Below, one piece after another: positions 8,173-27,240 of a DNA stretch of 64,000 nucleotides. The notes under the pieces were generated by a model. The model was not told the DNA's origin and ran no database searches. It was given only the letters and a program-made list of their open reading frames with translations. The translations under genes and the position numbers were made by a program. Every line of letters starts with the position of its first letter. Within the stretch, counting starts at the first letter, position 1. Source of the stretch: Dyadobacter sp. 50-39 (lineage in GTDB: Bacteria; Bacteroidota; Bacteroidia; Cytophagales; Spirosomataceae); the NCBI GenBank assembly GCA_001898145.1, contig MKSR01000040.1, positions 930,001 through 994,000 of the forward strand, written 5' to 3'.

Positions 8173-8222
8173 CAAATGCTAGAAAACTAAAATAAACCAG
8201 TCAAACCGATTTTCAAATCGTA

Positions 8223-8251
8223 GTGCGCACCCGTCCGGTAAGGGTGCGCAC
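8223..8251. terminator. Strong stem-loop, probable bidirectional terminator
   Basis: GTGCGCACCC pairs perfectly with GGGTGCGCAC (10 bp, 9-base loop). TTT follows on the plus side. It lies between the plus-strand remnants and the 3' end of the minus-strand glycosidase at 8273. Confidence 0.6.
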
Positions 8252-8272
8252 TTTCGCAGCAGGAAACGGCGG

Positions 8273-11220: not shown

Positions 11221-13566
11221 TCAGTGCTGACGGCGCAGTTCGATCTTCGCTCCTGCCGGCGCACTGAATGTGATAATTTGTGCATTCTCTTTCATTTTTC
11301 GCACTTTTTTCGACATCGTCAGCTTCCAGTCACCAACAGGCCGTTTCACTGAAAATTCCCCAGCCTGCTCAGTCACCAGGATCACCTCTACAACCTGCCC
11401 CGCTTCTTTTTTCGCACTCACCAGCACTGCGCCCTCTGCGCGGAGATTGCTGAATGCGGCGTCGCGCCACTCTGCCGGAAGCGCCGGCATGACGTCGATC
11501 ACACCCGCATAACTTTGCAGCATCATTTCCTGTAAGCCCGCGGCAAATGCGAAGTTACCTTCCAGCGTGAACGGGCGGTAGGTAAATTTGGAAAGCCCCG
11601 ATTTGGTCTGATCGCCGTTGGCATGAAAGCTATTGGGCAGACAAAAAGCCTTTGCGAAAATGGCCAATGCATCCCGGGCCCCCGCACCGTCTTTGGCTCG
11701 CGCTTTCAGGCTGGCAAGCCAGGCGTAGGAGTAACCGCACCACAAATCCGGACCCACTTTATCCAGCAAGGCGATGGTATTCGTGATCGTTTTCCGGGCA
11801 TCTTCGCCGTCTTCCCATTGGATCAGCCCCAGCGGATGAATGGCCATCAGGTGAGAGAAATGGCGGTGTGATTCATTGTAAGGTAAGGTTCTGGCAAACA
11901 TCAGCTCACTGTTCTCGGTCCGGGCAAAATCCGGGAATTCAGCCAGCAGCTTGCGCCACTTAGCTGCCTGCTGCCTGTCGCCCATTGCCTCCGCCAGCTC
12001 GATACCCGCCCGGAAAGTGAATTTCATGATCGCCAGGTCATAATTCGTCGTTTCCGGAAACCAGGCTTCCAGGCGGTTGTCGCGGATCTCGGGGCTCGAA
12101 CTGATCGGCAGATGCCGCTCGCCCGCAGCGTTTTTGACTGTAATATTTTCAAACAAAGCGCACGCCTGCCGGAACCACGGGTATGCACGCGATTGCAGGA
12201 AAGCCTTGTCCATTCCATACCGCCATTGCAGGTAATAGTGGTGCGCCAGCCAGCCCGAAACCGTCGGGGAAAGCGAATACTGGATCCAGCCGCCCATTTC
12301 GGTTCCATCCAGGGTGGTCACGCCCGGAACGGCCAGCCCGTCGACGCCGAAAAACAGTTTGGTGTAGCGTAGGTAGTTTTCCTTGTTTTCGTCCAAATGG
12401 TCGAGGTACCCGAGCGCTTCTTCGAGGTGGTTGCCGCTATATGCGGGCCAGTAGCTGAGCTGGGTGTTCAGGTCGTGGTGATAGTCTCCCTTCCAGGGCG
12501 GAATGCGGCCATTATCTGCTGTCCAGACGGCCTGAAGCGAAATCGGCGGAGCACCCCGACGGGCGGCCGACCCGAACTTGTACTGTTCGAGGTACCATTG
12601 TTTTTCAATGAGCGGATCGGGAACTGAAATGGCCGACATGCCCCAGAAGCGCTTCCACCAGGCCTGGTGCGACACAACGGCCGCTGCATAGGTTTGCTGC
12701 AAAGCGCGCTCCGTCAGCACGCCGGCAACCGGTTTCACCGCGGCGTTAGGGTAATGGGACGAAACACTCCAGACACCCTCCACTACCCCATTTTGCATGG
12801 GTTTCCAGCGTACCGCCACCTCATAACTAAACCCGCCCCAGCCTTCCTGCCGATAGGTAATGCTGCCGTTGCCGGGCGTTATAGTGCCCTGCTTATAGCC
12901 CAGCCGCGCCAGATCGTCGCCCACCAGCGAATTGACCGGGCCGCCCTCCTTCACCGCACCGCTATACCGCGGCGCAACAATTGCCGGTACGACGCTCGCC
13001 GGCGCGACGCCCGCCGGCGTCATTTCCCCACGCAAGTTCTCAAACCGGAACCAGCCGACCGGCTCCGTGGCATGGACGAACGTTTTCAGTACCACGCCAT
13101 TTTCCCACTCCACCTCCGCGGAGGCCTGGGCAAGCAGTACCCCGGCCCGTTTTACCTTCCAGTCGGCGGGCAAATCGAACTCCAATGCGCCCGCCGGTAT
13201 TTTGGAAGGCGCCGGTTCACGGTCGTAGGGTGCGTCAAAATACTGCTGAACAGGCTTGTAGTCCTTTTTGCGGACCTGCTCCTGCACCCATTTGTAGCTA
13301 AACTCCTCCCGGTGCAGGCCGGCCATCGGCCGCATATCCCACACGTCGGCGCGATCGAGCGAAAAGCGCAGCTTGCCTTCGCGCTGCCAGATCAGCGCGC
13401 CGATGGTGCCATTGCCCAGCGGAAGCGCCTCGTCCCACACCCGGGCCAGTTGGCCAAATTGAAGGTTATGCTTCTCCGCCAGCTGGGCGTGGGCGGCCGG
13501 TGTTACCAGCGCCCACACACCTGCCAGCAGCACCTGAATGAACTGACGGCTTTTAATATCCCTCAT
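11221..13566 (-). CDS. GH95-like glycoside hydrolase (alpha-L-fucosidase/galactosidase family), atypical active site
   Basis: The protein has about 781 residues from ATG 13566, which overlaps the SusD stop by 14 bases; this start places a signal peptide first (VLLAGVWALVTPAAHAQ). GH95 features are the N-terminal LARVWDEALPLGNGTIGALIW, the barrel segment DLNTQLSYWPAYSGN, the acid Glu region (SSSPEIRDNRLEAWFP), RHFSHLMAIHPLGLI and NFAFAAGLQEMMLQS. The family usually has NxN before the YWP motif and DGN before the final helix. Here these read DLN and EGN, so the catalytic amide and base positions differ and the substrate may not be fucose. It closes the ECF-regulated PUL. A 15-bp tandem repeat at 12980-13024 codes for an Ala/Pro-rich insert. 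Confidence 0.78.
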   Translation of the reverse strand: MRDIKSRQFIQVLLAGVWALVTPAAHAQLAEKHNLQFGQLARVWDEALPLGNGTIGALIWQREGKLRFSLDRADVWDMRPMAGLHREEFSYKWVQEQVRKKDYKPVQQYFDAPYDREPAPSKIPAGALEFDLPADWKVKRAGVLLAQASAEVEWENGVVLKTFVHATEPVGWFRFENLRGEMTPAGVAPASVVPAIVAPRYSGAVKEGGPVNSLVGDDLARLGYKQGTITPGNGSITYRQEGWGGFSYEVAVRWKPMQNGVVEGVWSVSSHYPNAAVKPVAGVLTERALQQTYAAAVVSHQAWWKRFWGMSAISVPDPLIEKQWYLEQYKFGSAARRGAPPISLQAVWTADNGRIPPWKGDYHHDLNTQLSYWPAYSGNHLEEALGYLDHLDENKENYLRYTKLFFGVDGLAVPGVTTLDGTEMGGWIQYSLSPTVSGWLAHHYYLQWRYGMDKAFLQSRAYPWFRQACALFENITVKNAAGERHLPISSSPEIRDNRLEAWFPETTNYDLAIMKFTFRAGIELAEAMGDRQQAAKWRKLLAEFPDFARTENSELMFARTLPYNESHRHFSHLMAIHPLGLIQWEDGEDARKTITNTIALLDKVGPDLWCGYSYAWLASLKARAKDGAGARDALAIFAKAFCLPNSFHANGDQTKSGLSKFTYRPFTLEGNFAFAAGLQEMMLQSYAGVIDVMPALPAEWRDAAFSNLRAEGAVLVSAKKEAGQVVEVILVTEQAGEFSVKRPVGDWKLTMSKKVRKMKENAQIITFSAPAGAKIELRRQH
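12980..13024. repeat. 15-bp tandem repeat, about three copies, inside the GH95-like gene
   Basis: Three consecutive 15-base units share GCCGG and, in the first two, a trailing CGACG (units at 12980, 12995 and 13010). They encode a low-complexity PAGVAPASVVPAIVAP segment. They keep frame, so copy-number change would alter only a linker. Confidence 0.6.
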
Positions 13567-15007
13567 TTTGAACCAGCGCTTTGTTAATATCAATTTCACT
13601 TTGCGAGAACGGCCATACATAGAACTTATCGTCCCATTTCAACCGTATGTTACTGTGTATCAGCTTGTCATTAATATCCTTGCCAATGCGCCAGCGGACG
13701 ATGTCGAACAGGCGGAGGCCTTCGAACGCGAGCTCCCGCCTGCGCTCCTTGCGCACAAGCGCACGGGTGAGCGAGGTGAGCGCCGGGACGCCCGCACGGG
13801 TGCGGATCGCATTCACATACGAAAGCGACCTGGCATCGGTGGTTGCACCCCCGGCCTTTTCCATTTGGGCCTCGGCATGCATCAGGTAAATGTCTGCAAG
13901 ACGGAACAGCACAATGTCGTGGCCTGTGAGGATATCGCGTTCGCTGGGGATAAACCGGCCCGGATCCCAGATGGCCGCAAATTTGATCAGACCGTAGTTG
14001 GTGGCAGTAAATTCGGTCTGAAATTTGAAGCCATCCTCGCGCTCGAAAGTAGTCTTATTGGGTGAAAAGTAATACCACTTTTTCAGGCGCAGGTCGCCGG
14101 TCTCGTATTCGTCGATCAGGTCCTTAGTCGGTGTGAGCCCGCCCCAGCGAAAAAATTCCACCTCCTGGCCGCCGTCGTTCGACTGCCGGCCGTCCCGGGT
14201 TTCGATGTATTTGATGGAGAAAATAATCTCCGGGCACGAGGCCTGCCCTTTTCCCTTGATAAACGGAGATTCGAGGTCGGGTGCAAGCGAATACTTGCCG
14301 GAGGAGATAATTGCGGATGTGAGCGAAATCACATCATCCCATTTACCCTGGAACAATGCGATACGCGCCTGCAATGCCCTGGCGCTGGTTTTCACCGCAT
14401 GGCCCGACTTGTAAGCGTCGTCGGGCAGGTTCGCCACGGCAAAATTCAGATCTTCTTCGATGAATTTGTAAACGTCCTCTTTCGTGGATTTGGCGATCTT
14501 CAACTGCTCGATATCGGCCGGTACCTCCCGGTAAATCACCACGCCGCCCCAACGCTGCACCAGCTCGAAATAGAATAACGCCCGCAGGAACCGCGCTTCG
14601 GCTTCGTAAGCCTTTGCAGCGGCGTCGGGTAGCGCTACTTTGGAGAAATTCTGAAGAAATATATTCACACCCGCAATGCCCTGGTAGCACGACGTGTACA
14701 GCGACCGCGGCGCACCCGAGTTTGCGGGATCGAGCGTGCCCGACTGCATCAGGCGGATGTCGCCGTAATGCTGCGCCCAGCCATTATCGGCGGCGGCGTC
14801 CCAGTAGCTGCGGTGCCAGGTCACGTAGGTGCCTTTCAATCGGGCATAGCAACCGGCAAGGCCCATTTGCACATCGCCCTCGGAGGTCCAGAATTGCCCG
14901 GCGGCAATTTCCTGCGGCGGATTTTTATCCAGAAAATCATCGCTGCAACCCGTGGCCGTGGCCAGGAGGATAGCCGGCAAAAGAATACGGTTTAGAAAAG
15001 TTTTCAT
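13553..15007 (-). CDS. SusD/RagB glycan-binding lipoprotein
   Basis: The 484-residue protein has a lipoprotein signal (LLATATGC, Cys21) followed by SDDFLDKNPPQEI, then the TPR-rich SusD core (AEARFLRALFYFELVQRWGG, RLADIYLMHAEAQ, RKERRRELAFEGLRLFDIVRW). It ends in DINKALVQNEGY, the usual kind of SusD terminus. It is surface-exposed and caps the SusC barrel to capture oligosaccharides. It follows SusC by 59 bases and its 3' end overlaps the GH95-like start, so the three are co-transcribed. Confidence 0.93.
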   Translation of the reverse strand: MKTFLNRILLPAILLATATGCSDDFLDKNPPQEIAAGQFWTSEGDVQMGLAGCYARLKGTYVTWHRSYWDAAADNGWAQHYGDIRLMQSGTLDPANSGAPRSLYTSCYQGIAGVNIFLQNFSKVALPDAAAKAYEAEARFLRALFYFELVQRWGGVVIYREVPADIEQLKIAKSTKEDVYKFIEEDLNFAVANLPDDAYKSGHAVKTSARALQARIALFQGKWDDVISLTSAIISSGKYSLAPDLESPFIKGKGQASCPEIIFSIKYIETRDGRQSNDGGQEVEFFRWGGLTPTKDLIDEYETGDLRLKKWYYFSPNKTTFEREDGFKFQTEFTATNYGLIKFAAIWDPGRFIPSERDILTGHDIVLFRLADIYLMHAEAQMEKAGGATTDARSLSYVNAIRTRAGVPALTSLTRALVRKERRRELAFEGLRLFDIVRWRIGKDINDKLIHSNIRLKWDDKFYVWPFSQSEIDINKALVQNEGY

Positions 15008-15066
15008 AAGGAGTATATCTTAAAATCTTTTAAATCATCATTCAATCATTCAATCATTTTCCCCAA

Positions 15067-18000
15067 TCAGAATCGCAGGTTCAGACCCACCGAATACACT
15101 TTCAGCTGAGGATACTGGGCATGCCAGCCATCGCCCGCGCGCTCGGGGTCGAGATCGGGGTATTTGGTGAAAGTGAGGATGTTGTCCCCCGTGAGGAATA
15201 CTTTCAGATGGCTGATTCCCACCTTCTTCGTGACGGAGGCCGGTATCGTGTAGCCGATCTGCAAGTTTTTCAGGCGCAGGTACGAGGCGTCTTTGAGAAA
15301 ATACGTCGAGTTCTGGGCAGTTCCGCCTGTCATCGGTGCATATCCCCATCCGTAAATGGCCGGCACTTCGGAGTCAGGGTTGGTCACGGGATCGTAGGCG
15401 TCCAGGAATTTGGGATGCGGGGAAGAGCCTTGCGAGAAAGGGTCTTCGCCAAAGAAATACGTCCTTACCTTTTGCCCCTGAACCCCCTGGAAGAAAACGG
15501 CTAAGTCGAAATTCTTCCACCTCACATTACCGCCGAACGAGTAAATAAAACCGGGATAAGCACCTTTCACGCGAACGCGGTCGTCGCCGTCGATCTTGCC
15601 GTCATTGTTTTGGTCTTTGAATTTAATGTCGCCCAGCTGCGGGTTACCGGGCGTTACCACGGCTTTCAGCTCCTCCTCCGACTTGAAAAGGCCTGTGTAT
15701 TCATAGAGATAGTAGTCGCGGTAGGGCAAGCCTTCCTGGATAATGCGGTCGCTGTAAGCGGGTGCCGGGAACTTGATGACTTTGTTACGGTTGGCAGAAA
15801 TTTGCCCGTTAATGCCGTATTCGACCGAACCAAACTTACCCTTGTGCCCCAGCTCGATTTCCAGTCCATAGTTTCGCAGTGTCCCGTAGTTGATCGTCGG
15901 GGCCGACATTCCTGCGCTGCCGGGAATGATTGCGGCGGCCAGAATCCCAGTGGTAAGTTTGTTGTACCAGTCGATGGTACCATAGATCAGGTCGTTTTTG
16001 AGGTTAAAATCGAGCCCGATATCCGCGGTCTTCGTCTGTTCCCATTTAAGCGCACGGTTGCGGTAGGCGGTCTGCTGCACCCCCTGATTCAGCGCCTCAT
16101 TGAATGCATAAGTGGTGGATACGTAGGTTTCCTGCCATGGGTACTCGCCGATATTGGCATTCCCCAACAAACCGTACGAAGCCCTGAGTTTGAGGTTGTC
16201 GATCCAGTTGGCACCATCGCGGATAAAAGCCTCCTCGCTGATCCGCCACGCAGCCGAAGCGGAAGGGAAAAAGCCCCAGCGGCTGTCCTTATAAATACGG
16301 GAAGTACCATCGTACCTGAAATTCGCTTCCAGAAGATACTTCGAAGCCAGCGCATAAGTAGCCCGACCGAAAATCGACTGGAATGCCCATTCAGTGAGGC
16401 CGCCGGTAGTGGTCTGGTTCAATGGCCCCATACCATCCAGCTCGTACATATTTTTAACGGGGAACACATTGCGCGTTCCGCCAAGCCAGCGGTATTTCTG
16501 CTCTTCCTGGCTGTACCCTACCATGAGCGAAATGTCATGGCGGTCGGGGTTCCAGTTCCAGTTGACAGACGAATAAAACGTATTCAGCAGCGTCCTGAAA
16601 TTGCCCTGGTTGACACCCAATGCCTCCGGCCCGAACGGCGTGCCCTTCTGGTACGCATTGGCACCGCCCGCCACGTATTCATTTTCGGGCAGATAGTAAT
16701 AGGCATCGGCACCATAATGGTAAATGTTGCGGAACTGCTCGGCGAACCTGGACGCGTATTTGGAGCTCCATTTCAAGCCCATTTTCTCAGTTTGCAGGAA
16801 ATTCACATCGAGCCAGCCCTGAACGTTGGCCTGCCAGTCCTCGTAATCGCGGTAAGTTTCATTGGCAATCCAGAACGGGTTGCGGTTATTCTGCGTGCCG
16901 CCTACGCCGGTAGGAACGGCCTTGTCGGTGTAGCGCCCGCTGCCGTCGGGCAGGTAGGGTTTTACCAAGGGTGCCTGGGTGATCGTCATGAGGACGAAAT
17001 TCTGGTTTTCATAGTAAGGCGAAACCGAATTCCCTTTCATATAACTCACGTTGGTACCGACCGTAATGTATTTATTGATCGTCGTGGACAGATTGGCCAA
17101 GCCATTGAAACGCTTGTACTTATGCCCCATCAGCACGCCTTTCTGATCGATGATCCCGGCTGATACATTGTACTTGAAAGCGTCGGAACCACCATTCACG
17201 CCCACATTATGCTCCTGCATCGGTGCCGATTTCCAGACGGCGTCGGCCCAGTTGTAGTCGGGGAACATATTCTTGTCACGGTTCGGGTCTTTGTATTTGT
17301 CGATCAGCGCCTGCGGGAACGGCACGGCGCTCACTGCATTCCTGGCCACCGCCTTATTGAAAAGCTCCATATACTGGCCCGAATTCCAGATCTGGTTTGG
17401 CACACCCGTGGGCGACTGCGTGCGGAGCGACATGTTGTAGGTCAATGCAGGCTTGCCCTTCTTGCCCTGCTTGGTGGTAACCAGTATCACCCCGTTCGCT
17501 GCGCGTGCGCCATAAATGGAAGCCGAAGCCGCATCTTTCAGCACCGAAATGCTTTCGATATCCGACATCGGCAATACATCCAGCGAACCCACCACGCCAT
17601 CCACCAACACGAGTGGGCTGGTGTTGGTGCCCCACGAGCTCGCGCCGCGGAGCGTCAGCGAAACACTCTCGCGCCCCGGCATACCCGTGCCCTGGCTGAT
17701 GCGCAAACCGGTCACCTGGCCCTGCAATGCCGCAAGACTGTTGCTCACCTGGCGGCTTTGCATATTGTCGACATTCACGGTGGATACCGAGCCGGTCAGG
17801 TTCACTTTCTTCTGCGTGCCATAACCCACCACCACCACTTCTTCGAGCGCCTTCTCGTCCACTTTCAGGACAACGTCTAGCGCCGTACGTTGCGCGGCCA
17901 CTACGACCTCCTGCGAGATGAACCCCACAGACGAAAACACGACCGTCTGCTCGCCATCCGGCACCAGCAGGCTGTAACTGCCGTCGGCATTGGTCACTGC

Positions 18001-18510
18001 TCCGCGCTGGCTGCCTTTGATCACGATATTGACGCCCGGCAAGCCTTCGCCCTTTTCGCCGGAAACCTTCCCTACCACCGACCGGTCGTCGACCACCGTC
18101 GCATATTTCGGCTCATTCGGGGCCGGCTCGGCGGCGTTAATTACCTCCGGTTGGCTGCGAAGCACGATCCGGTTGCTCACCTGCTTGTAGCGGATTTTGT
18201 TGGGCAGAAGCAGTTTGTCGAGTACCGCGGCGAGCGGCTCGTTCTGCGCATTCAGCGTCACGGTGAATTTCAGGGGCAGCATCCGCGAGTTGTAGGAGAA
18301 CTTGATTTCAGCTGTTTTTTCCAGCTGCTGCAATGCGCTACCCAGCGTAGCACGGTTAAGATTCAGCGTAACTCTCTTTTCCAGCAGGTTCTGACCGGCC
18401 AGCGGTGCGGCCATCGCCAGCTGGGCTACGACAATCAAAAGGACGATTTGTTGTAACGACTTCATCAAGAGTTGACACAATAAGCGTTTGGCAGTCAAAG
18501 TTTTCTTCAT
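15067..18510 (-). CDS. SusC/RagA TonB-dependent receptor with STN signalling domain
   Basis: The 1147-residue protein has a signal peptide (IVLLIVVAQLAMAAPLAGQ). An STN domain lies at about 45-115 (VTLNLNRATLGSALQQLEK), followed by a carboxypeptidase-regulatory-like beta domain (VVGKVSGEKGEGLPGVNIV). Then come the plug (EEVVVVGYGTQKKVNLTGSV; RGASSWGTNTSPLVLVDGVV) and a long barrel ending VGLNLRF. It imports oligosaccharides across the outer membrane with TonB energy. The STN domain passes substrate status to FecR, which is encoded immediately upstream, so this PUL is controlled by trans-envelope ECF signalling rather than by a hybrid two-component system. Confidence 0.95.
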   Translation of the reverse strand: MKKTLTAKRLLCQLLMKSLQQIVLLIVVAQLAMAAPLAGQNLLEKRVTLNLNRATLGSALQQLEKTAEIKFSYNSRMLPLKFTVTLNAQNEPLAAVLDKLLLPNKIRYKQVSNRIVLRSQPEVINAAEPAPNEPKYATVVDDRSVVGKVSGEKGEGLPGVNIVIKGSQRGAVTNADGSYSLLVPDGEQTVVFSSVGFISQEVVVAAQRTALDVVLKVDEKALEEVVVVGYGTQKKVNLTGSVSTVNVDNMQSRQVSNSLAALQGQVTGLRISQGTGMPGRESVSLTLRGASSWGTNTSPLVLVDGVVGSLDVLPMSDIESISVLKDAASASIYGARAANGVILVTTKQGKKGKPALTYNMSLRTQSPTGVPNQIWNSGQYMELFNKAVARNAVSAVPFPQALIDKYKDPNRDKNMFPDYNWADAVWKSAPMQEHNVGVNGGSDAFKYNVSAGIIDQKGVLMGHKYKRFNGLANLSTTINKYITVGTNVSYMKGNSVSPYYENQNFVLMTITQAPLVKPYLPDGSGRYTDKAVPTGVGGTQNNRNPFWIANETYRDYEDWQANVQGWLDVNFLQTEKMGLKWSSKYASRFAEQFRNIYHYGADAYYYLPENEYVAGGANAYQKGTPFGPEALGVNQGNFRTLLNTFYSSVNWNWNPDRHDISLMVGYSQEEQKYRWLGGTRNVFPVKNMYELDGMGPLNQTTTGGLTEWAFQSIFGRATYALASKYLLEANFRYDGTSRIYKDSRWGFFPSASAAWRISEEAFIRDGANWIDNLKLRASYGLLGNANIGEYPWQETYVSTTYAFNEALNQGVQQTAYRNRALKWEQTKTADIGLDFNLKNDLIYGTIDWYNKLTTGILAAAIIPGSAGMSAPTINYGTLRNYGLEIELGHKGKFGSVEYGINGQISANRNKVIKFPAPAYSDRIIQEGLPYRDYYLYEYTGLFKSEEELKAVVTPGNPQLGDIKFKDQNNDGKIDGDDRVRVKGAYPGFIYSFGGNVRWKNFDLAVFFQGVQGQKVRTYFFGEDPFSQGSSPHPKFLDAYDPVTNPDSEVPAIYGWGYAPMTGGTAQNSTYFLKDASYLRLKNLQIGYTIPASVTKKVGISHLKVFLTGDNILTFTKYPDLDPERAGDGWHAQYPQLKVYSVGLNLRF

Positions 18511-18602
18511 AGATTTGACGGTTTATTGTTTCGATTCGACAGAAAAATTGGGCAATAACACCCCACTCCCAGGGCGTCATGCAATCGGGGTTGTGGTTTC
18601 GG

Positions 18603-18637
18603 GAGCCGGCCTGCTGCAACCAGTCCGGCTCTTTTTT
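18603..18637 (+). terminator. Terminator-like hairpin in the FecR-SusC gap, plus orientation
   Basis: GAGCCGG pairs with CCGGCTC, followed at once by six T on the plus strand. The genes here run on the minus strand, so it cannot end FecR by the usual rule. It could stop antisense transcription into FecR, or act as a hairpin in the SusC leader. Confidence 0.4.
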
Positions 18638-18668
18638 GAATAGGCAGGTTTGTTAATTCATATGCGGG

Positions 18669-19742
18669 TCATTCATTACATCCGGTGGATTCTACAACGA
18701 CGTGGTTCCCTTCCATGCGGAATTGCGTACCGGAGCTGATACTTTCGCAAACGATTTTCAATTTCGACAAGAGCGGTTCGTCGGACAGCGAAGTGGAGAG
18801 GTAACAGTTGCGCAAAGCTTCACGGGGATAGTCGATCGTGACGCCGTAAGCACTTTCAAGCGCCGAGAAGATCGTCTCGACGGGCGCATCGGAGAAGTCG
18901 AAATTCAGGTATTCGATAGCCCTTTTCGGTATATCCTTGTTTTCAGGTTTTTCAAAAAGGCTCCGGGATTTTACGTAACTGACAGACTGGTTGGGCAGCA
19001 ATACCACGTTTTCGGACGCATTATTCTTCGGTTTGACCTGCCGGACATGCACTTCGCCGGTTTTCACAAACACTTCCACTTCGGGCTGGTCGTCTGCCGC
19101 TTTGACGCGGAAGCTCGTACCGACCACCTCCGTGATAATGTCGTTGGTGTAGACCAGGAAAGGCCGCCGACGGTTTTTGCTTATTTCAAAAAACGCCTCA
19201 CCCGCCAGATGTACCTCCCGCTTACCTGCTGCAAATTTCGCCGGGTAGCTCAGCTTTCCGCCGGGTTGCAGGATGATCGTGCTGCCGTCTTCGAGGTTTA
19301 CAAGCCTGGCAACTCTGGAATCGTTGAAAACTTCGATCTCGCGTTTCGCCGGGGAAGCCGCCGGTGGTTTCCGCATGGCCGTATTTGTTACTGACAGTTG
19401 CTGGCGGGAGACATACCATCCAAGCCCGAGCGCAAACAACAGCACTGCCGCCGCCGCACGCCACCAGCCCGTGAAGCCCGTCGGCAGCACGCGATGCTCG
19501 TGCTCGTGGATCCGCCACCAGGTTTCTTCCAGCGCCTGATCGGTTTCCCCGGCCGTGGCACCGGTCATATCGTCGCCGATCGCCAGGATCAGGTAACGTG
19601 CTTCCTGTGCCAGCCGCTGCTTGGCCGCATTCGCTTCGAGCCATTGCACCCAGCCGGCATTATCACGGCCCGTGATAACCCATTCGCGGAACAATGCGTC
19701 GTCGCAGAACTGCGTAACGGTGGTATAGCTTTCTCGCTGCAT
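18669..19742 (-). CDS. FecR-type anti-sigma factor
   Basis: The 357-residue inner-membrane protein has a cytoplasmic N-terminal sigma-binding part (about 1-90) and one membrane helix (AAAVLLFALGLGWYVS). The periplasmic FecR domain includes VNLEDGSTIILQPGGKLSYP, HLAGEAFFEISKNRRRPF and VYTNDIITEVVGTSFRV. The C-terminal DUF4974 secretin/TonB-like domain (YLNFDFSDAPVETIFSALE) contacts the STN domain of the SusC. It lies between its ECF sigma gene and SusC in the standard order. Confidence 0.95.
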   Translation of the reverse strand: MQRESYTTVTQFCDDALFREWVITGRDNAGWVQWLEANAAKQRLAQEARYLILAIGDDMTGATAGETDQALEETWWRIHEHEHRVLPTGFTGWWRAAAAVLLFALGLGWYVSRQQLSVTNTAMRKPPAASPAKREIEVFNDSRVARLVNLEDGSTIILQPGGKLSYPAKFAAGKREVHLAGEAFFEISKNRRRPFLVYTNDIITEVVGTSFRVKAADDQPEVEVFVKTGEVHVRQVKPKNNASENVVLLPNQSVSYVKSRSLFEKPENKDIPKRAIEYLNFDFSDAPVETIFSALESAYGVTIDYPREALRNCYLSTSLSDEPLLSKLKIVCESISSGTQFRMEGNHVVVESTGCNE

Positions 19743-19821
19743 GAAGTAATGGTTTTTCAGGCAGGAGAGGACGGCATCCGGCGGCGATACTCACCGATTT
19801 TTAATTTTTTTGATAAAAATT

Positions 19822-20415
19822 TTAAAAATACACACACAAGAGCAATGCGAACGTGTGTAATTCCCCTACCCAAACTTCGCGGATATGCTTGATGCCGCGG
19901 TGGAGCAGGTTGGAAGCGGATTGCGGATTGATCTGCATCAGGCGGGCGATCTCGTCGATGTCGAGCTGCTGATGGTAGCGGAGATACAGCGCCTCACGCT
20001 GGCGGGCGGGGAGCTGGTTGAGGAGGGTATTGAGCTGATGTACCTGCCTGCGCGTTTCTTCGTCGGAGATCATGGCATCGAGCGGTGTAAACTGGAATGA
20101 GAATTCGGCCTCGCCGATGTCGCGCGAATGCCTGAAAATGCGGTCGCGTTCGAGCCTGCGTGCAATGCGCCGCCTTACGCCTGCGAGGAGGTAGGCCCTC
20201 ACGGAATCCGGAACCGCGAGGTTTTTCCGGTAAATCCAGACTTCCATGAATGTTTCCTGCACACAATCACCGGCCAGTCCGTGGTGGTCGGTGAGCGACT
20301 TACCGTAGCCGAGTAATGCGGGGTAATATTTCCGGAAAAGTGCGGTGTAAGCAGCCTGGTCATCGTCTTTGATCAGGCACCAAAGTTGTGAATCCGGAAG
20401 CGAAACGTCTGACAT
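19822..20415 (-). CDS. ECF sigma factor (sigma-70 region 2/4)
   Basis: The 197-residue protein has region 2 (AAYTALFRKYYPALLGYGK, CVQETFMEVWIYRKNL) and region 4 (LNQLPARQREALYLRYHQQL, DIDEIARLMQINPQSASNLL). It is 79 bases ahead of FecR and presumably drives transcription of the SusC-SusD-GH95 genes once FecR releases it. The C-terminal hydrophobic tail (LHTFALLLCVYF) is common in Bacteroidota PUL sigma factors. Confidence 0.94.
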   Translation of the reverse strand: MSDVSLPDSQLWCLIKDDDQAAYTALFRKYYPALLGYGKSLTDHHGLAGDCVQETFMEVWIYRKNLAVPDSVRAYLLAGVRRRIARRLERDRIFRHSRDIGEAEFSFQFTPLDAMISDEETRRQVHQLNTLLNQLPARQREALYLRYHQQLDIDEIARLMQINPQSASNLLHRGIKHIREVWVGELHTFALLLCVYF

Positions 20416-20561: not shown

Positions 20562-22019
20562 TCACTGCACGATCTCCGCCCCCCAAAGAAAGCCAAGCAC
20601 TTTCCTGACATCCGGGATCGGGATATGCCGGCACCAGGTTTCGATGGCGCTGCCGTAGGTAACCCCTTCGCCCAATGTGTTCAGGAGCGGGGGTATTTCA
20701 ATCTGGTTGATGTAAACCAATGGTCTCGAAAGGTTGGGATGTACCAATGCACGCCGCACTTCGACCCGATCGCCGGTAACGGCAAATTCGGGGCTGAATG
20801 CAAGCTGGGCCGACAGGCGCACGGGCTTGTCCCAAAGAAACCGGATCAGCGGGTCGATGGGGACGGCGGCAGGTTCTCCGGCCGGCTTGGGCGGGTGCCA
20901 TGCGAGCCGCTGTTTTACCAATGCAGTAAACGCATTCGTCGCGGGTATGGCTTCCATGCGGAATTCCCTTCTTTTTTGCCAAAAAGGGAAATGGGCATTG
21001 ATTTTGCCGGCTTCCGCATAGTATCCGGAAGTCCAGCGGTGGTGGCTGGCTACCGCGTCGGCCAGTTTGCTTTCATAAAATGCTTTTGCGACCGTCGGAT
21101 CGTTATCTGTCAGCATGGTATGGACCGCAACGGCTGCTTGCAGCGAAAAGCGCATGGCTGCCTCCAAGCCCGTCGAGGACAGCGGATCGAGCGCGAATGC
21201 GGCCTCGCCGACTCGGAGGTACTGCTGTTCCCACGGGTGCATATGTACGTAGGTTTGCACGAGGCAGGTTTTTAGTTCCAGACCTTCCGCTACCAATGCA
21301 CCGAATAGCCTTGAACCGGCCAGCATTTGCCGCATCGTTTGCGTTTTGCTGCGGCTTTTGAGGGAATCCGGGTCGGTAAATACCATGATCCGGTACTGCT
21401 CCCACGGCACGGGCGCCCCCCATATCCAGCCTTCGTCGACGGTTTCGATGCATGCTTCGTCGGGCATTGCTCTCGCGGGCACGTGCGCCCAGAGCGCTAC
21501 GGACGCGGGGGCAAGCTGCAAGCGCTCCCGGGTGGGTGCGCCATTGCGCCCGCGGGCGTCGAGGACAATGCTGCCCGTAATGCGCTGATCTCCCTCCGCC
21601 GACCGGATTCTGAATTCGTACTTGTCGCCTTGCCAAACCGATGCGGCTATCCGGGCAGGCTGGAACAGCCGCAACCCCTTACCTGTGGCGAAAGCCAGCA
21701 GTCGGGCATCCAGCCGTGCCCTGTCGACGACCATTCCTGCTCCACGCTGGCCAGGTTGCAGGAGGGCGGGGTCTCCCCCGCCCCACGCAATTCTGGCAGG
21801 TTTGTTATGCAAATAGGAAAAGTCATCCAGCAGGTCGCCGGCATGGAGGTAGTCGAAAATAGGTCGCACTCCCGGTGACAGCGATTCCCCGATCTGCGGG
21901 CGGGGAAATGCTTCCTGCTCGACCAGGGCTACCGAATGCCCCATTTCGAGCAGGCGGACCGCCGCAGCAAGACCGGCCGGTCCCGCACCGATGATTACGA
22001 TTTCAAAATCCTGCACCAT
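20562..22019 (-). CDS. LodB/GoxB-like FAD-dependent monooxygenase, probable cofactor maturase
   Basis: The 485-residue flavoprotein starts with the dinucleotide-binding loop IVIIGAGPAGLAAAVRL and an acidic strand end (VALVEQEAFPRPQIGES). It also has a GR-type FAD segment (RARLDARLLAFA) and the second FAD motif (EAAFALDPLSSTGLEAAM, with the DP dipeptide). This layout is that of tryptophan-halogenase/LodB/QhpG-like flavoenzymes. LodB is known to be required for forming the cysteine tryptophylquinone (CTQ) of LodA, and QhpG hydroxylates the precursor Trp of quinohemoprotein amine dehydrogenase. As the last gene of the operon, 6 bases after the radical SAM gene, it should hydroxylate the LodA-like tryptophan here. 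Confidence 0.82.
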   Translation of the reverse strand: MVQDFEIVIIGAGPAGLAAAVRLLEMGHSVALVEQEAFPRPQIGESLSPGVRPIFDYLHAGDLLDDFSYLHNKPARIAWGGGDPALLQPGQRGAGMVVDRARLDARLLAFATGKGLRLFQPARIAASVWQGDKYEFRIRSAEGDQRITGSIVLDARGRNGAPTRERLQLAPASVALWAHVPARAMPDEACIETVDEGWIWGAPVPWEQYRIMVFTDPDSLKSRSKTQTMRQMLAGSRLFGALVAEGLELKTCLVQTYVHMHPWEQQYLRVGEAAFALDPLSSTGLEAAMRFSLQAAVAVHTMLTDNDPTVAKAFYESKLADAVASHHRWTSGYYAEAGKINAHFPFWQKRREFRMEAIPATNAFTALVKQRLAWHPPKPAGEPAAVPIDPLIRFLWDKPVRLSAQLAFSPEFAVTGDRVEVRRALVHPNLSRPLVYINQIEIPPLLNTLGEGVTYGSAIETWCRHIPIPDVRKVLGFLWGAEIVQ

Positions 22020-22025
22020 AGGTTG

Positions 22026-23396
22026 TTACATGTTCCATCCGGGTTTCAGGCGCGATAGCCGCTCGTGGGCCTGTATCGTGTAATGCAGCCACGAACGAAT
22101 GTAGTCGCAGGCCGTGCGGCCTTTGGCGATCACCTCGTGATGGCAGCCGCCTCCGCACAGGTAGCGCGCCCAGCATTGGGTACAGGGGCTCTGGCGGCTC
22201 ACATGCCGCGACGACAGCCAGCCATTCTGCAAACCGGCGTCGATACCGGTGCTGAGATTGCCCATTTTACCTGCGTCCTCATTGACGAACCGATGGCAGG
22301 CAAAGAGCTCCTCGTCGGCCGAAACACCCATATAACCCGCTCCTGCCCCGCATGGATAAGGACGGTGCGTGCCTTTGGAAATTTCCTTTAATGCATTCAC
22401 CATATTCAAAAAAGGGTACCGCCTGCCGGCGAGCACGTTCTTTTCAAAATTCAGTCCGCAAGCGATCATGTTTTCCAGCAGTAGCGAAAGTTCTTCCCTG
22501 CCCATTTCATCACGCCCGTTGATCGACCTCAGCAGCGGAGAAAAACCAACACTGTGGAAGCCCATCCGGATGAATTCGTCGAGCATCACCGACAGATCGA
22601 GGTTACGCGGGGTAACCGTGACACGGGCCGATACCTGCATCTTTTCCTGCATGGCCAGCAGCGGCGCCAGGTTTTTCATAATCAGGTCGAAACTGCCCCT
22701 GCCACCCTTCATAGGCCTTTGCAGGTCATGGCTCGGACCGATACCGTCGAGGCTGACGGTTACTGCGAAACCATATTCTTCAAAGAAGCGGGCATCGGCT
22801 TCGGTGACCATCGTGCCATTGGTGGTGATTGAAAAACCAACCTTGATGTGTTTCCTGGCCGCTTTGGCCACCGCATACGTCGTCGCTTCGGTCAGCGCTT
22901 TACGGTTCGCCAGGGGCTCACCACCCAGGAATGTAAGCTGCACTTTCTCGCCTTCCGGACATTGGTCCATGAGCAGGTCTATCGCACAGAGCGCCGTTTC
23001 CAGCGTCATGCTTTTGGATTTCCCGCCAAAGCTACCCTGGTCGGCATAACAATAGGTACAGCCCATGTTGCATTTCTGGGCGATAGCGAGTGACAGGGCG
23101 TAGAGCCTCGGGCTTTCCAACGGCGTATCGTCCACATAATCGGAGGCGGACAAGCCGCATCTCACCAGCAGGTCGTGCAACTCCGCTTCATCCCCGGCAT
23201 CCAGTGCCCTGGCGATGCGCTGCTCCACATCCCCTGCCAGGGTGTACAGCCTGCTGCCATTCGGGATGAAAAGCTGGGTATTGCCGCCTCCCCTGATCAG
23301 GTGGGCCAATGGCGACTTCGGCCGGGACTGCGAGGCAATCGTTCCGGCCAGCCGTGCTACCGCCACAGCGGGTTCCATGTCAGCTGTTGAGTGCAT
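22026..23396 (-). CDS. Radical SAM enzyme with C-terminal SPASM domain, peptide-modifying type
   Basis: The 456-residue protein has the radical SAM cluster motif CNMGCTYC (Cys109, 113, 116). The SPASM region is rich in Cys (349, 367, 405, 408, 414, 418, 430), with CTQCWARYLCGGGCHHE, enough for two auxiliary iron-sulfur clusters. An N-terminal section (about 40-95) resembles the peptide-recognition part of such enzymes. The closest functional analogue I can name is QhpD/PeaB, which makes Cys-to-Asp/Glu thioether bonds in quinohemoprotein amine dehydrogenase. Its start overlaps the end of the LodA-like gene by 17 bases, so the two are translationally coupled. That makes the oxidase its likely substrate, though LodA systems are not known to need a radical SAM partner. 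Confidence 0.88.
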   Translation of the reverse strand: MHSTADMEPAVAVARLAGTIASQSRPKSPLAHLIRGGGNTQLFIPNGSRLYTLAGDVEQRIARALDAGDEAELHDLLVRCGLSASDYVDDTPLESPRLYALSLAIAQKCNMGCTYCYADQGSFGGKSKSMTLETALCAIDLLMDQCPEGEKVQLTFLGGEPLANRKALTEATTYAVAKAARKHIKVGFSITTNGTMVTEADARFFEEYGFAVTVSLDGIGPSHDLQRPMKGGRGSFDLIMKNLAPLLAMQEKMQVSARVTVTPRNLDLSVMLDEFIRMGFHSVGFSPLLRSINGRDEMGREELSLLLENMIACGLNFEKNVLAGRRYPFLNMVNALKEISKGTHRPYPCGAGAGYMGVSADEELFACHRFVNEDAGKMGNLSTGIDAGLQNGWLSSRHVSRQSPCTQCWARYLCGGGCHHEVIAKGRTACDYIRSWLHYTIQAHERLSRLKPGWNM

Positions 23397-25614
23397 CTTT
23401 TCCTTCTACGATAAAGTTGAGCTCGCCCTGCCAGTTGATAAACAGGTCGTCATAGGAAAGCAGCCTTTTATTCACCCGGTCGTCGGGAATGTAGCTGCCG
23501 GTGCGTTTTTTTGCCATCCAGCTGTCGCCGGTGCTCAACCCCTTTTCATCGGGAACCACGTTCACATAGTCGGGACGGCTGGCAGCCCAGTAATAGCAAG
23601 CACACTCGCGGTAGTCGTTTTGCCAGGGTGCGCAGAGGCCCTGGGTAAGTTCGCCGGGCCGGATGATCTGCTCCGAAAGCGTCGCGCTGTCTCCGTCAAA
23701 TACTTTATTGACCGTCAGCATTACTTTTTTGTAAAGGGCGGGATCATCGAGCTTTTCCAGGTCCGCGACCACTTCATGCGTGCTTTTTTCGGCTGTAAAA
23801 TAGCAGTCAACCTGCTGGCCCTGCTTTTGCAGCACATTCACCATGGAATTGGACCATTCCATAAACGACACGCCGTTCGGGTTGGCTTCCGTGCGGAGCG
23901 GCACGCTGTCGCCGTCGGGGAACACCGGGCCCGAGGTAGCCACCATGGTAGGCTTCCCGTCAATGGCCACCAGCCGGTGATCTACCAAATGCGCATAGGC
24001 ATCGTCGGCATCGATCACGTAATTGTTGTTTTCGATGAGTACAATACCCTGGAATGCCCGGCGCCAGAGGTTTCTGAAATCAAATTCCAGCCCCGGAAAA
24101 CAATTGGAAATGGCAGTGCGGGGTAAAACGCTCATCGGGTTTCCTTTGCCGCGGTAATGCAGCTGGGCGGTCAGGTTGGATGGCACAAGCGGGTCGTCGC
24201 CGGCAACCGTGTCGGCTTCGGGCATCATCGACCGGGCCGCGGCCTTGATCACCATGTTGATCTGCCGCCGCGTAAAGGTGAGCGAGCGTCCATCGGCCCC
24301 GCGCATCAGCGCAGGCATTTTCCGGAGGGCTTTCGCCGACAGGTCCCCGATTTCCTCGGGCTTGCGGAGCAAGTCCTCAAACCAGGGCGAAGCGCCGGTG
24401 CTCAGCCCAGCAAAAACCCGTTCGTGCAGCACCTGCAAAGCCATATTATCTACGAGCGAAGTAGCCATGATCGGCTCGTAAAGACGCCCGAAGTCGTTGG
24501 TATTCTGCCTGACCATCGTGCTGGCAATGTTGAGTTTGCCCTCATACGCATTGCCGTTCATGATCGCCGTGTTCATCAGCCGGATCGTTTCGAAGGCGCG
24601 CCGGATGATCTCCTCGGCTTCTTCGATAGTCACTTCGCCATCCACATCGGTACCGAGCAGAATTTGTTCCAATTCGTCGGACACCACGCGGATAGGCAGG
24701 GTATCGGGTGCGTATGCGGGCGGACCGGCGCTGATGTGCGCATTCGCAGACAGGATTGTGCCGGTAGGCCCTGCGAGTTTCACGGTCACGAAACCGTCGC
24801 ATTCATCGTCGAGGTAGCCCCAGCTGATCTGGTTGTTCTTTGCATCGGAGTATCCGGCAAATATCTGTGCCGGGTTGGTGTAGCGCGGATTGGGCGTGCT
24901 GGTTTCCGAATAACCGCGCCAGCATCCCTTTTCGGTATCATACAAAATGGGGTCGTCACGCCGGCCGGCGAATACGGGGTCTACCTGCTCTTTACCATCC
25001 TTTTTCCGGAGCAGGCTCGATCCGTACACCTTTCCCGCGGCGGGGGTAAACCGGAACCGGATCTCGGGAAACTCCGGCGTAGGCCTGATAAACTGGACAA
25101 ACCCGAGCGGCAGCGTTTTTCCTTTGATAAAATTAATGCATTCGCCTTGTAAAGGTTTCAGCTCGTGCGAACGGATGTCGTTGATCGTAGCGTACATCTT
25201 GTCATGTTCATCATTGGTACGCCTGAATATCTTGATATTGCCCACCTGTACATCCCAGCTGATAGCATCCAGCTGGTAACCCGCCTTTTGCAGCAAGTCG
25301 ACCGTCAGCGGGACCAACTTGTCCGGTTCCTCGTCCGTAATGGCGAACACTTCCAGGAATGGAGCCACCGGGTGTGCTTTGCCCGTCTTGTCGTCGAGGT
25401 TTTCTGCGTCCTTGAATTGTACCCTGTCCGGTTCATAGGCCGTCATCTCCCCGGTTGCGGGATGTACTTCAAAGCTCTTTTCCGGGACGATTTTCCGGAA
25501 ATCCAGGGGCTTGTCTTCGGATAGTTCGAGGTTATAAGCGGCCATCGGCTTGTCCGATTCGCCCAGGCGCCCGATCGCGATGGGAGGAAGTATTCGTAAT
25601 GCTAGAATTTTCAT
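23380..25614 (-). CDS. LodA/GoxA-like CTQ-dependent amino-acid oxidase
   Basis: The protein has 744 residues from ATG 25614 (a TTG at 25623 would add three). The N-terminus (LALRILPPIAIGRLGESD) and the central NCFPGLEFDFRNLWRRAF segment match LodA-type oxidases. Near the C-terminus PWQNDYRECACYYW reproduces the D-xxx-C spacing of Asp512/Cys516 of LodA (here about Asp670 and Cys674, counted from the TTG), followed by Trp candidates 28 and 57 residues later (in GDSWMAKK and INWQGELNF). Cys plus Trp would form cysteine tryptophylquinone. Family members oxidise lysine or glycine, giving hydrogen peroxide, and can be antibacterial. There is no signal peptide. The C-terminal tail after the Cys is shorter than in LodA, so this is a divergent member. 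Confidence 0.75.
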   Translation of the reverse strand: MKILALRILPPIAIGRLGESDKPMAAYNLELSEDKPLDFRKIVPEKSFEVHPATGEMTAYEPDRVQFKDAENLDDKTGKAHPVAPFLEVFAITDEEPDKLVPLTVDLLQKAGYQLDAISWDVQVGNIKIFRRTNDEHDKMYATINDIRSHELKPLQGECINFIKGKTLPLGFVQFIRPTPEFPEIRFRFTPAAGKVYGSSLLRKKDGKEQVDPVFAGRRDDPILYDTEKGCWRGYSETSTPNPRYTNPAQIFAGYSDAKNNQISWGYLDDECDGFVTVKLAGPTGTILSANAHISAGPPAYAPDTLPIRVVSDELEQILLGTDVDGEVTIEEAEEIIRRAFETIRLMNTAIMNGNAYEGKLNIASTMVRQNTNDFGRLYEPIMATSLVDNMALQVLHERVFAGLSTGASPWFEDLLRKPEEIGDLSAKALRKMPALMRGADGRSLTFTRRQINMVIKAAARSMMPEADTVAGDDPLVPSNLTAQLHYRGKGNPMSVLPRTAISNCFPGLEFDFRNLWRRAFQGIVLIENNNYVIDADDAYAHLVDHRLVAIDGKPTMVATSGPVFPDGDSVPLRTEANPNGVSFMEWSNSMVNVLQKQGQQVDCYFTAEKSTHEVVADLEKLDDPALYKKVMLTVNKVFDGDSATLSEQIIRPGELTQGLCAPWQNDYRECACYYWAASRPDYVNVVPDEKGLSTGDSWMAKKRTGSYIPDDRVNKRLLSYDDLFINWQGELNFIVEGKDALNS

Positions 25615-25652
25615 ATCCGGCAATGGTTTTGGCTTTAATGTGTTGAGAAAAC

Positions 25653-27134
25653 TCAGGCGAGCTCGGCCTGCATCAGTTGGGCGATGGCTTCCAGCAGCTT
25701 GCGGTCTATTTCCTGCAAGACATTCAGGTACTGGCCATGCGGCGTCCTCAATTTTTTCAGGCCTTCGATGAGCTGGCCCGACGCATCGAGCAGGTCGCGG
25801 TGCAGACGCCAGCGGTTGTGCTCGCCAAATGGCAGATCGATGCTGTACGGCGAGGTGAACGGCGGGCCGGCCATGAGCTTGCTATGCGGGGCGATCGGCG
25901 TTTGCACGAGAATAGCGGCCAGGCTCCGGAGGTTGTACATTTCCCCGAATGTGGAGTTGATGATCAGCCCCCGTGGTGTGAATGAGCCTACATTATTGTT
26001 GCCATTATCGAGCAGGAAACTGTGGCTGAGAAAGTTGAGCAGCAACCGGTAGCGGACGTCAAACAGATTGGCCCACAAGATCCCTTCGTCACTGGTGATG
26101 ATATTCCGCTCCATCTCATCCGCAGGCTCGTTCGAAGCCGTGCCGGCGTCGTCGGGCTGGCCCGCGTACGGGTTGGTAGCCACATTGTAGGCCGGATCGA
26201 AATCGCCGCCGGTTTCTTCTAAAATCGCTTTGAAATCGTTGAAAATGAACAAAAAGCGCTGGAAATGCGAGGGGTTGGCTTCGTCGTCCGTTTCTTCGCC
26301 CTCACCCTGTTCGGCGATCTGGTCCAGCGCATTGTAGGCATCATCACGGGAGAGCAGCGGGGCAACGAGCACATCGGGGCTTTTGGTAAACCCTCCTTCT
26401 TTGGAACTTCCCCTGTTCCCGCCGGTATAACCCCGGCCCCATTCGTCGAATTTGGCCTGGTAGGGATAGGTGCCCGGCTGAAACGCATCATCGGAGATCA
26501 CTTTCGGGTCCTGGATCAGTTGCAGCAGCACCTTGAACAGCGCCCCCACGGTGTGTGGGTCGGAAGCCTGCGCATGCACCAGCGCATTGATCTCTTTGGC
26601 TACGGGTTCGTCGCCGGCGAGCCATGCCGCTGGCGCTTCGGCATATACGTATTTGGCCAGCGACCGGAGCGTAAACTTTTCGAGCGTAAAGGGAAAAGGG
26701 TAAAAGGGTACATCCCAGGGATAGCTTTCGCGGCCGAAATTCAGCGGAGCACCTATGATCTTCAACACATTCTGGACGGAAATGAAGTGCCCCATCTCCT
26801 CTTTGGCGATCCCGAGAATGATGTTCTTCCAGTTATGCACCCGCTCCCTGTATTTCTCGGGAATTTGCGGCCCGCCGATGCTGTAAGCCGAATAAAGGTA
26901 TTGCAGCATGAGCCCGTGCTCGATTTCGGCGTCGACGTGCAGCAGCATGGTGATGTAGTCCTTTCCGGTAAACTGCGCAGGAACCGTAAACGGCATTTCT
27001 ACCGCTTCCGCCGCTTCTGCGGTATCAGTGGCTTCCAGAAGCCCCTTCAAATGATGTTCCCTGGGTTTCTGATTGGCCCGCGCCCATTCCAGTACCGGAT
27101 CAATAAAAGATTTCCTCAGTTGTTTTTCGTCCAT
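25653..27134 (-). CDS. Ferritin-like (VioB/iminophenylpyruvate dimer synthase-type) domain protein
   Basis: The protein has about 493 residues from ATG 27134; the longer frame to 27191 adds an unlikely leader. The four-helix ferritin-like core has metal-ligand candidates in YITMLLHVDAEIEHGLMLQ (Glu and His) and ILGIAKEEMGHFISVQNVL (Glu, Glu and His), the two ExxH-like elements of a diiron site. Proteins of this type accompany VioB-like enzymes and several oxidase clusters; their chemistry is mostly unknown. It is the first gene of the operon, 38 bases before the LodA-like ATG. It could be a partner enzyme using or removing the hydrogen peroxide or imine produced, which is speculation. Confidence 0.75.
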   Translation of the reverse strand: MDEKQLRKSFIDPVLEWARANQKPREHHLKGLLEATDTAEAAEAVEMPFTVPAQFTGKDYITMLLHVDAEIEHGLMLQYLYSAYSIGGPQIPEKYRERVHNWKNIILGIAKEEMGHFISVQNVLKIIGAPLNFGRESYPWDVPFYPFPFTLEKFTLRSLAKYVYAEAPAAWLAGDEPVAKEINALVHAQASDPHTVGALFKVLLQLIQDPKVISDDAFQPGTYPYQAKFDEWGRGYTGGNRGSSKEGGFTKSPDVLVAPLLSRDDAYNALDQIAEQGEGEETDDEANPSHFQRFLFIFNDFKAILEETGGDFDPAYNVATNPYAGQPDDAGTASNEPADEMERNIITSDEGILWANLFDVRYRLLLNFLSHSFLLDNGNNNVGSFTPRGLIINSTFGEMYNLRSLAAILVQTPIAPHSKLMAGPPFTSPYSIDLPFGEHNRWRLHRDLLDASGQLIEGLKKLRTPHGQYLNVLQEIDRKLLEAIAQLMQAELA

Positions 27135-27240
27135 GATGATAAGAGTTGTGAAAAAGGTAGGCAATACATTTCCAAACCAATACAGGTGCACCGGTCCGTT
27201 GGAAAAGCAATCTGAAAGAAATTTAGTGGGATGCTCTAAA

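Follow-up and report, generated by a model that had tools for sequence, protein, structure and literature searches.

A conserved four-gene cassette in Dyadobacter sp. 50-39 that may join a LodA-type oxidase scaffold to quinohemoprotein amine dehydrogenase-type maturation

Cysteine tryptophylquinone (CTQ) is the cofactor of the LodA/GoxA oxidases (L-lysine 6-oxidase and glycine oxidase, respectively) and of quinohemoprotein amine dehydrogenase (QHNDH), which are described as having reached it convergently (PMC7876137). The CTQ residues of LodA are C516 and W581 (PMC4417212). In QHNDH, the radical S-adenosylmethionine (SAM) enzyme QhpD forms three Cys-to-Asp/Glu thioethers in the subunit QhpC, one of them between Cys41 and Asp49, while CTQ itself arises from Cys37 and Trp43 (PMC7876137). 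In this study, we describe an operon located in a stretch of 64,000 nucleotides from Dyadobacter sp. 50-39 (assembly GCA_001898145.1, contig MKSR01000040.1, positions 930,001 to 994,000 of the forward strand), referred to below as the window. Its four genes encode a ferritin-like protein, an oxidase of LodA/GoxA fold, a radical SAM-SPASM protein and a QhpG-like flavin adenine dinucleotide (FAD) monooxygenase. We propose, with a probability of about 0.72, that this operon makes a LodA-scaffold CTQ oxidase that would be matured in the manner of QHNDH.

The combination of a LodA-type oxidase with radical SAM, QhpG-like and ferritin-like partners was not found in the titles and abstract openings searched, most of the subscription literature lying outside that search. 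Among the papers found, LodA, CTQ and radical SAM enzymes occur together only in PMC7876137, as separate systems. The fungal (group V) LodA genes resemble the operon in that LodA-like, flavoprotein and PF12902 genes lie close together (Campillo-Brocal et al., 2015; PMC4417212), but radical SAM enzymes go unmentioned there, the word "radical" being absent from the main text of that paper.

The four-gene cassette and its conservation

All four genes lie on the minus strand and span positions 20562-27134 (Table 1). They are as tightly packed as the preliminary description of this DNA had indicated: the oxidase and radical SAM open reading frames (ORFs) share 17 bases (23380-23396) and only 6 bases (22020-22025) separate the radical SAM ORF from that of the flavoprotein. 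The first codon of the oxidase ORF is TTG. Given that the alignment to two relatives of the genus (L007 and L008) begins at residue 4, the true start may be the ATG at this residue. A signal peptide was not evident on inspection by eye, and a cytoplasmic location appears probable.

A scan of one genome per species yielded 224 candidates, of which 204 were confirmed as relatives, and the locus counts given here refer to the best 80 of these 204. The oxidase gene was directly followed by the radical SAM gene in 79/80 loci, the latter by the flavoprotein gene in 79/80, and the ferritin-like gene immediately preceded the oxidase, again in 79/80. When counted anywhere in the stretch, the numbers were 80, 79 and 79 for radical SAM, flavoprotein and ferritin-like genes, respectively. 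Two loci account for these exceptions. One (L082) has only a partial radical SAM ORF, placed upstream, and its stretch is devoid of a flavoprotein gene; it is the only locus in which the adjacency of radical SAM gene and oxidase, on which the preliminary description had made its proposal depend, differs. The other (L042) has no ferritin-like match and most of the N-terminal part of its oxidase is missing. The four genes are, in short, a real and conserved cassette. A survey of its co-occurrence in other Bacteroidota had been suggested, and the cassette extends beyond them to six phyla in all: Bacteroidota (39 loci), Pseudomonadota (31), Myxococcota (4), Actinomycetota (2), Planctomycetota (2) and Acidobacteriota (1), with one locus unassigned.

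The oxidase is a single fused protein in 43 loci, is split into two genes in 36 and is unclear in one; the split class includes the frameshifted L083, which is the Bacteroidota locus entered as split. The fused and split states required two changes on a quick tree of the radical SAM protein (77 rows). The aligned rows in which residue conservation was counted leave out L001 (identical to the window), L083 and L016 (no C-part); L082 and L016 were too partial for the radical SAM rows.

The nearest named loci among the best 80 of the 204 relatives were from Dyadobacter. In a search of 59 genomes (8 matched, including that of the window, which is 7.7 Mb in size), the oxidase was present in 7/36 other genomes of the genus at 73-91% identity and without internal stops, and 29/36 gave no match. 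Since seven other genomes of the genus keep the oxidase uninterrupted, it can be excluded that the operon genes are chance ORFs. A search with the N-terminal part of the oxidase in 395 genomes of the phylum matched only that of the window, and the cassette is therefore rare and patchy. Regarding plasmids, tblastn with the oxidase matched 20 records, in 9 of which two annotated hypothetical proteins were covered. Three loci (L009, L010 and L018) are annotated as a ferritin-like protein, two hypothetical proteins (the oxidase halves), a radical SAM protein and then a tryptophan 7-halogenase. The scan of viral contigs was without matches.

Table 1. Location of the operon genes, the cofactor region and related features in other loci
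Feature	Coordinates	Strand	Evidence or remark
Flavoprotein, 485 aa, QhpG-like FAD monooxygenase with QhpG-type C-terminal region	20562-22019	minus	NF049967
Radical SAM-SPASM maturase (putative), 456 aa	22026-23396	minus	TIGR03906 best family, below cut-off
LodA/GoxA-fold oxidase, 747 aa	23380-25623 (likely start ATG 25614)	minus	PDB fold matches
Cofactor and crosslink motif (predicted), oxidase residues 664-685	23569..23634	minus	strict motif in 96/96 rows
Ferritin-like protein, first gene	25653-27191 (GTG start 27191; ATG at 27134)	minus	PF12902
PF12902-oxidase fusions, Streptomyces/Nostoc plasmids	L013:8882-10771; L014:5077-6711, 8023-9918; L015:8961-10757		radical SAM gene between halves
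Ordinary LodA/GoxA-type oxidase near cassette	L024:12804-15860; L025:12894-17101; L085:1008-4006; L123 beside L009; L117 beside L011

The oxidase and its cofactor region

The preliminary description had called the oxidase LodA-like. Curated models by themselves leave it outside the LodA/GoxA family, since PF17990 (LodA N) had no match in the genome of the window and PF18417 (LodA_C) scored 22.1 bits, below its cut-off of 25; one distant relative (L014) narrowly exceeded it (25.6). The GoxA and LodA models (NF038172/NF038173) gave 21.7 of 750 bits (E 3.8e-5) and 13.8 of 600 bits, respectively, and phmmer against the PDB reached GoxA at only E 0.021. The likeness was borne out by fold and by profile comparison. 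With an AlphaFold model of mean predicted local distance difference test (pLDDT) 81, all 50 PDB matches at E<=0.001 were GoxA or LodA (best 2.7e-11), with low query-normalised TM-scores (0.23-0.34), and when the C-terminal part was compared, profile against profile, with nine LodA/GoxA-like proteins over their cofactor region, the probability was 96% (P 3.3e-9). The oxidase is thus a distant homologue of LodA/GoxA, outside the curated cut-offs and inside by fold. A match of the C-part profile to CpxP (E 3e-4, its LodA match being 0.0087) was taken as due to chance because it is situated in a different part of the profile.

Residues 664-685 of the oxidase read C664 A P W Q N D670 Y R E C674 A C676 Y Y W679 A A S R P D685. 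The PWQ-D-xxx-C signature that had been noted earlier is found at residues 666-674, and the strict motif LC664xPWxxD670xxxC674xC676xxW679...PD685 is present in 96/96 rows. One of the two patterns used in the scan overlapped this motif, while the second lay outside it; as the second, independent pattern is carried by 77/79 rows of the species scan, the retrieval of these rows did not depend on the motif. In LodA, the residues aligned to D670 and C674 are D512 and C516. In profile-profile alignment W679 is paired with the Trp of the W-P-A-x-x-P element of LodA/GoxA-like proteins, and in hhalign with the CTQ Trp of QhpC. The context of W581 in LodA is W-W581-P-P-Q-S-P (letters from an alignment segment scoring below zero). 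W679, at position C+5, is therefore the likely CTQ Trp, given that it is aligned to the W-P-A-x-x-P Trp, whose context is that of LodA W581. Two other candidates were rejected. W731 is kept in 95/96 rows, but a low-scoring alignment pairs it with a LodA Trp some 110 residues after C516 and not with W581, and W702 is replaced by F in 2/96 rows. Our best reading of the motif places CTQ at C674-W679 and putative thioethers at C664-D670 and C676-D685.

The same region was compared in 21 LodA/GoxA-like proteins, a set that includes near copies (16 clusters at 80% identity) and in which three proteins come from loci that also hold the cassette. For eleven of them, the pattern PWxxDxxxC served to select the protein within its locus, and its presence in these is therefore no test. 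Positions C-10, C+2 and C+4 are without Cys in all 21. The distance from the CTQ Cys to the Trp is 13-35 residues in all 21 and 65 in LodA, as against 5 in the cassette oxidase, and in 21/21 this Trp is preceded by an aromatic residue or Ser and stands in the context W-[PAG]-[AT]-x-x-[PL]. No cassette-type radical SAM ORF was found in the other 18 LodA/GoxA-like stretches, 11 of which span no more than about 3.5 kb; two others of note (L117 and L123) come from plasmids that have a cassette a few kb away. In summary, the cassette oxidase shares with LodA/GoxA the fold, the PWQxDxxxC motif and a CTQ Trp in a W-x-A-x-x-P-like context, whereas it differs in its scores with the two Pfam models, in two extra invariant cysteines, in the short Cys-Trp distance, in having a QhpG-like rather than LodB-like flavoprotein and a radical SAM partner, and in that the oxidase often consists of two polypeptides.

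QhpC (PDB 1jmx) reads L26 C27 QPMEA D33 LYG C37 SDP C41 W W43 PAQVP D49. In this sequence we take C27 to be paired with D33, and the third crosslink to be C7-E16. The six residues C27, D33, C37, C41, W43 and D49 all have a counterpart in the oxidase, namely C664, D670, C674, C676, W679 and D685. The hhalign comparison of the oxidase C-domain with QhpC produced this same register (P 0.0062), and 0/200 column shuffles scored as high; LodA/GoxA-like proteins align with QhpC at the Trp element (P 2e-5). The idea of a hybrid maturation route put forward in the preliminary description is supported by this comparison, in which the two extra QhpC cysteines have counterparts in the cassette oxidase and none in LodA/GoxA-like proteins.

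The system also resembles that of QhpC in having QhpD-like and QhpG-like putative maturases within the operon. It differs from it in that the module is inside a LodA-type chain of 747 residues (or of roughly 290 residues) instead of a 79-residue subunit, and in that the operon of the window is without haem subunit, beta subunit, protease or transporter genes. The QhpC model gave 13.2 of 50 bits on the oxidase, and none of the four operon genes matched the haem subunit. Separately, a divergent QhpC was observed (L103:6809-7189) on a plasmid of Novosphingobium in which there is an oxidase match (H7) as well; its motif, CQPVERDIYDCYVTCFWPVQVPDHVN, is by eye nearer to that of the cassette than those of the other four QhpC sequences.

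The flavoprotein and the radical SAM protein

The flavoprotein had been described as LodB-like, and this did not stand. It scored 297.1 bits with the QhpG model NF049967, above the cut-off of 240, and 132.1 and 120.3 bits with the LodB and GoxB models, both below their cut-off of 400. The QhpG cut-off was passed in the three cassettes tested (280 and 265 bits in the other two), while the two LodB-like proteins tested that lie beside ordinary LodA genes remained below it (190 and 160 bits); a true QhpG gave 558 bits. In addition, the C-terminal region of the flavoprotein aligns with QhpG and is missing in two LodB-like proteins. In a quick tree, which carried long-branch warnings and in which LodB was not one clean group, the 28 cassette rows grouped together (support 90), and a branch with support 96 set them, along with QhpG, apart from the three LodB rows. 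On model scores and tree, an identity as LodB is rejected and the flavoprotein is QhpG-like.

With regard to the radical SAM protein, TIGR03906 (QhpD) was the best family at 289.8 bits, below its cut-off of 453. QhpD was the best family in 3/3 cassettes tested, that of the window included, and each time below the cut-off (290, 336 and 266 of 453 bits). The second best was NF047865 (261.3 bits, below 340), that of the PapB-type ranthipeptide maturases, in which the system finds a further likeness; PapB we take to be a maturase with Cys-Asp/Glu thioether chemistry, presumably acting on a short peptide. The core cysteines C109, C113 and C116 and the SPASM-region cysteines C349, C367, C405, C408, C414, C418 and C430 are invariant in 95 rows.

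Proposed maturation and alternative explanations

In the pathway proposed, the QhpD/PapB-like radical SAM-SPASM enzyme would form the two Cys-to-Asp thioethers in the C-terminal domain of the oxidase, the QhpG-like flavoprotein would hydroxylate W679 on the crosslinked chain, and a final oxidation with formation of the C674-W679 link would give CTQ. The mature oxidase would deaminate a primary amine or amino acid and pass the electrons to O2, producing H2O2. The ferritin-like protein would be a standing partner of the oxidase, with a diiron-type site acting on the product (imine or peroxide) and not in the thioether step.

It must be noted that several observations weigh against this proposal. 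The profile match between cassette and QhpC is, taken alone, weak (6% probability). The spacing differs from that of QhpC, by two residues from the CTQ Cys to the Cys that follows it, by one in C676-W679 and by one in C676-D685. Two of the three crosslinked pairs of QhpC are matched, no counterpart of the third having been found in the oxidase. A search for QhpC in the genome of the window and 22 other host genomes, run with no positive control, found none. The radical SAM protein falls short of the QhpD cut-off and its QhpD scores exceed those with PapB by a modest margin, and its quick tree, which carried a long-branch warning, joins it to QhpD by a long branch with no other outgroup. With 97.5 and 131.1 of 240 bits, the flavoproteins of the two Nostoc variants do not reach the QhpG cut-off, and their position in the tree is unstable. 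Finally, pLDDT is below 50 at residues 670-682, where the AlphaFold model is unreliable for the geometry of the motif.

The ferritin-like protein matched PF12902 at E 5e-29 (102.2 bits, gathering score 22.3). Its best Foldseek match was the ferritin-like protein 3hl1 of Caulobacter (E 3.6e-5), and a PDB search with its profile gave no match. Residues E91, E132, H135, E185, E297 and H309 (in 512-residue numbering) are invariant in 90 rows, being mostly common to other PF12902 proteins, and these four Glu and two His could be metal ligands of a diiron-type site. Such a site would also suit a different role for this component only, namely that of a scavenger of peroxide or of a maturation factor acting on W679 by metal-oxygen chemistry; we regard this as a serious possibility, though we lean away from it. 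In favour of such a role, LodA proteins fused to catalase-like or iron-redox domains are known (PMC4417212). Against it, an Azospirillum locus (L122:2629-7049) holds a ferritin-like gene that precedes an ordinary LodA/GoxA-type oxidase and its flavoprotein, and the 9.7 kb covered there are without a radical SAM gene. From this locus and the fungal LodA neighbourhoods it follows that the ferritin-like partner goes with the oxidase and not only with the thioether step. Moreover, one Streptomyces and two Nostoc plasmids encode the C-terminal part of the oxidase and a PF12902 domain as one protein, and in one Nostoc such a domain is joined to the N-terminal part (Table 1), an arrangement that suits a catalytic complex no less well. 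The best NCBIfam match was VioB, far below its cut-off (53 of 1250 bits), an enzyme that we take to act on an imine product. As a separate observation, L011:2703-5450 encodes a protein of 915 residues in which BNR-type repeats are combined with a PF12902 domain at the C terminus, divergently placed beside a cassette without another ferritin-like match.

Regarding the two extra cysteines, it is unlikely that C664 and C676 form a disulfide or a metal site, with the flavoprotein alone making CTQ and the radical SAM enzyme performing another modification of the oxidase (e.g., one crosslink or the Cys-Trp bond). There is a precedent, in that LodA/GoxA need no radical SAM enzyme, the second oxygen being introduced by the flavoprotein once an initial hydroxylation, thought to be autocatalytic, has taken place (PMC7876137), and the matches of the radical SAM protein include families with other chemistries. 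However, these cysteines are present in 96/96 cassette rows and in 0/21 LodA/GoxA-like proteins, and the two top families of the radical SAM protein are QhpD, which forms Cys-Asp/Glu thioethers (PMC7876137), and the ranthipeptide maturase PapB.

Very improbable is an ordinary CTQ oxidase of LodA/GoxA type with a LodB-type flavoprotein, in which the radical SAM and ferritin-like proteins would be dispensable accessories. The LodA/GoxA fold and the ferritin-like genes found beside the ordinary LodA-like oxidase of Azospirillum and near fungal LodA genes (PMC4417212) agree with it, but the flavoprotein is above the QhpG cut-off and far below that of LodB and has a QhpG-type C-terminal region, the Cys-Trp distance is well outside the range of LodA/GoxA-like proteins, and the radical SAM gene adjoins the oxidase in all loci but one. 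As for the modification of a separate small peptide (a ribosomally synthesised and post-translationally modified peptide), with an adjacency to the oxidase that is organisational only, many SPASM enzymes mature short peptides and the matches to such families are strong, but we give it hardly any credence, as the order oxidase-radical SAM-flavoprotein is kept in 79/80 loci, in fused and split forms alike, and the cysteines and acidic residues that such an enzyme would need are preserved in the oxidase.

Other features were observed around the cassettes. In at least five loci, three in genomes and two on plasmids, the cassette has, no more than about 8 kb away, an ordinary oxidase of LodA/GoxA type together with its LodB-type flavoprotein (Table 1), which suggests that the two oxidase systems are used together. 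A Mesorhizobium locus (L012:5923-14311) has a cassette without ferritin-like match, after which come genes for a multicopper oxidase and a tyrosinase, and some LodA operons likewise carry these two genes (PMC4417212). In an Azospirillum copy (L016:5962-9468) the radical SAM gene stops early beside an IS3 transposase and the oxidase C-part was not found. In the window itself, the downstream positions 13553-20415 hold, by eye, look-alikes of a SusD/TonB-receptor pair, a FecR-type protein and an extracytoplasmic function (ECF) sigma factor, seemingly unrelated to the operon.

Considering the proposed maturation in relation to known enzymes, we are inclined to see here a third class of CTQ enzyme that bridges LodA/GoxA and QhpC. 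The CTQ modules of these would be homologous, and the new class would have a LodA body with the short loop, crosslinks and maturases of the QhpC type; in many lineages it would be a two-subunit LodA in which the small subunit carries the cofactor, as QhpC does. Therefore, in such a class a radical SAM enzyme would put thioethers in the active site of an enzyme of about 750 residues whose CTQ residues are five apart. A LodA-scaffold CTQ oxidase with QHNDH-type maturation may thus link two families that have been treated as separate. If this is true, the LodA/GoxA oxidases and QHNDH would be joined through a shared module, and the need of some CTQ sites for a radical SAM enzyme could be put to the test, the contrast being between a short Cys-Trp loop held by thioethers and a long one held by the fold. 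In addition, genes recorded in dozens of species as hypothetical protein and tryptophan 7-halogenase would acquire likely roles, and the cassette would be a source of new amine or amino-acid oxidases.

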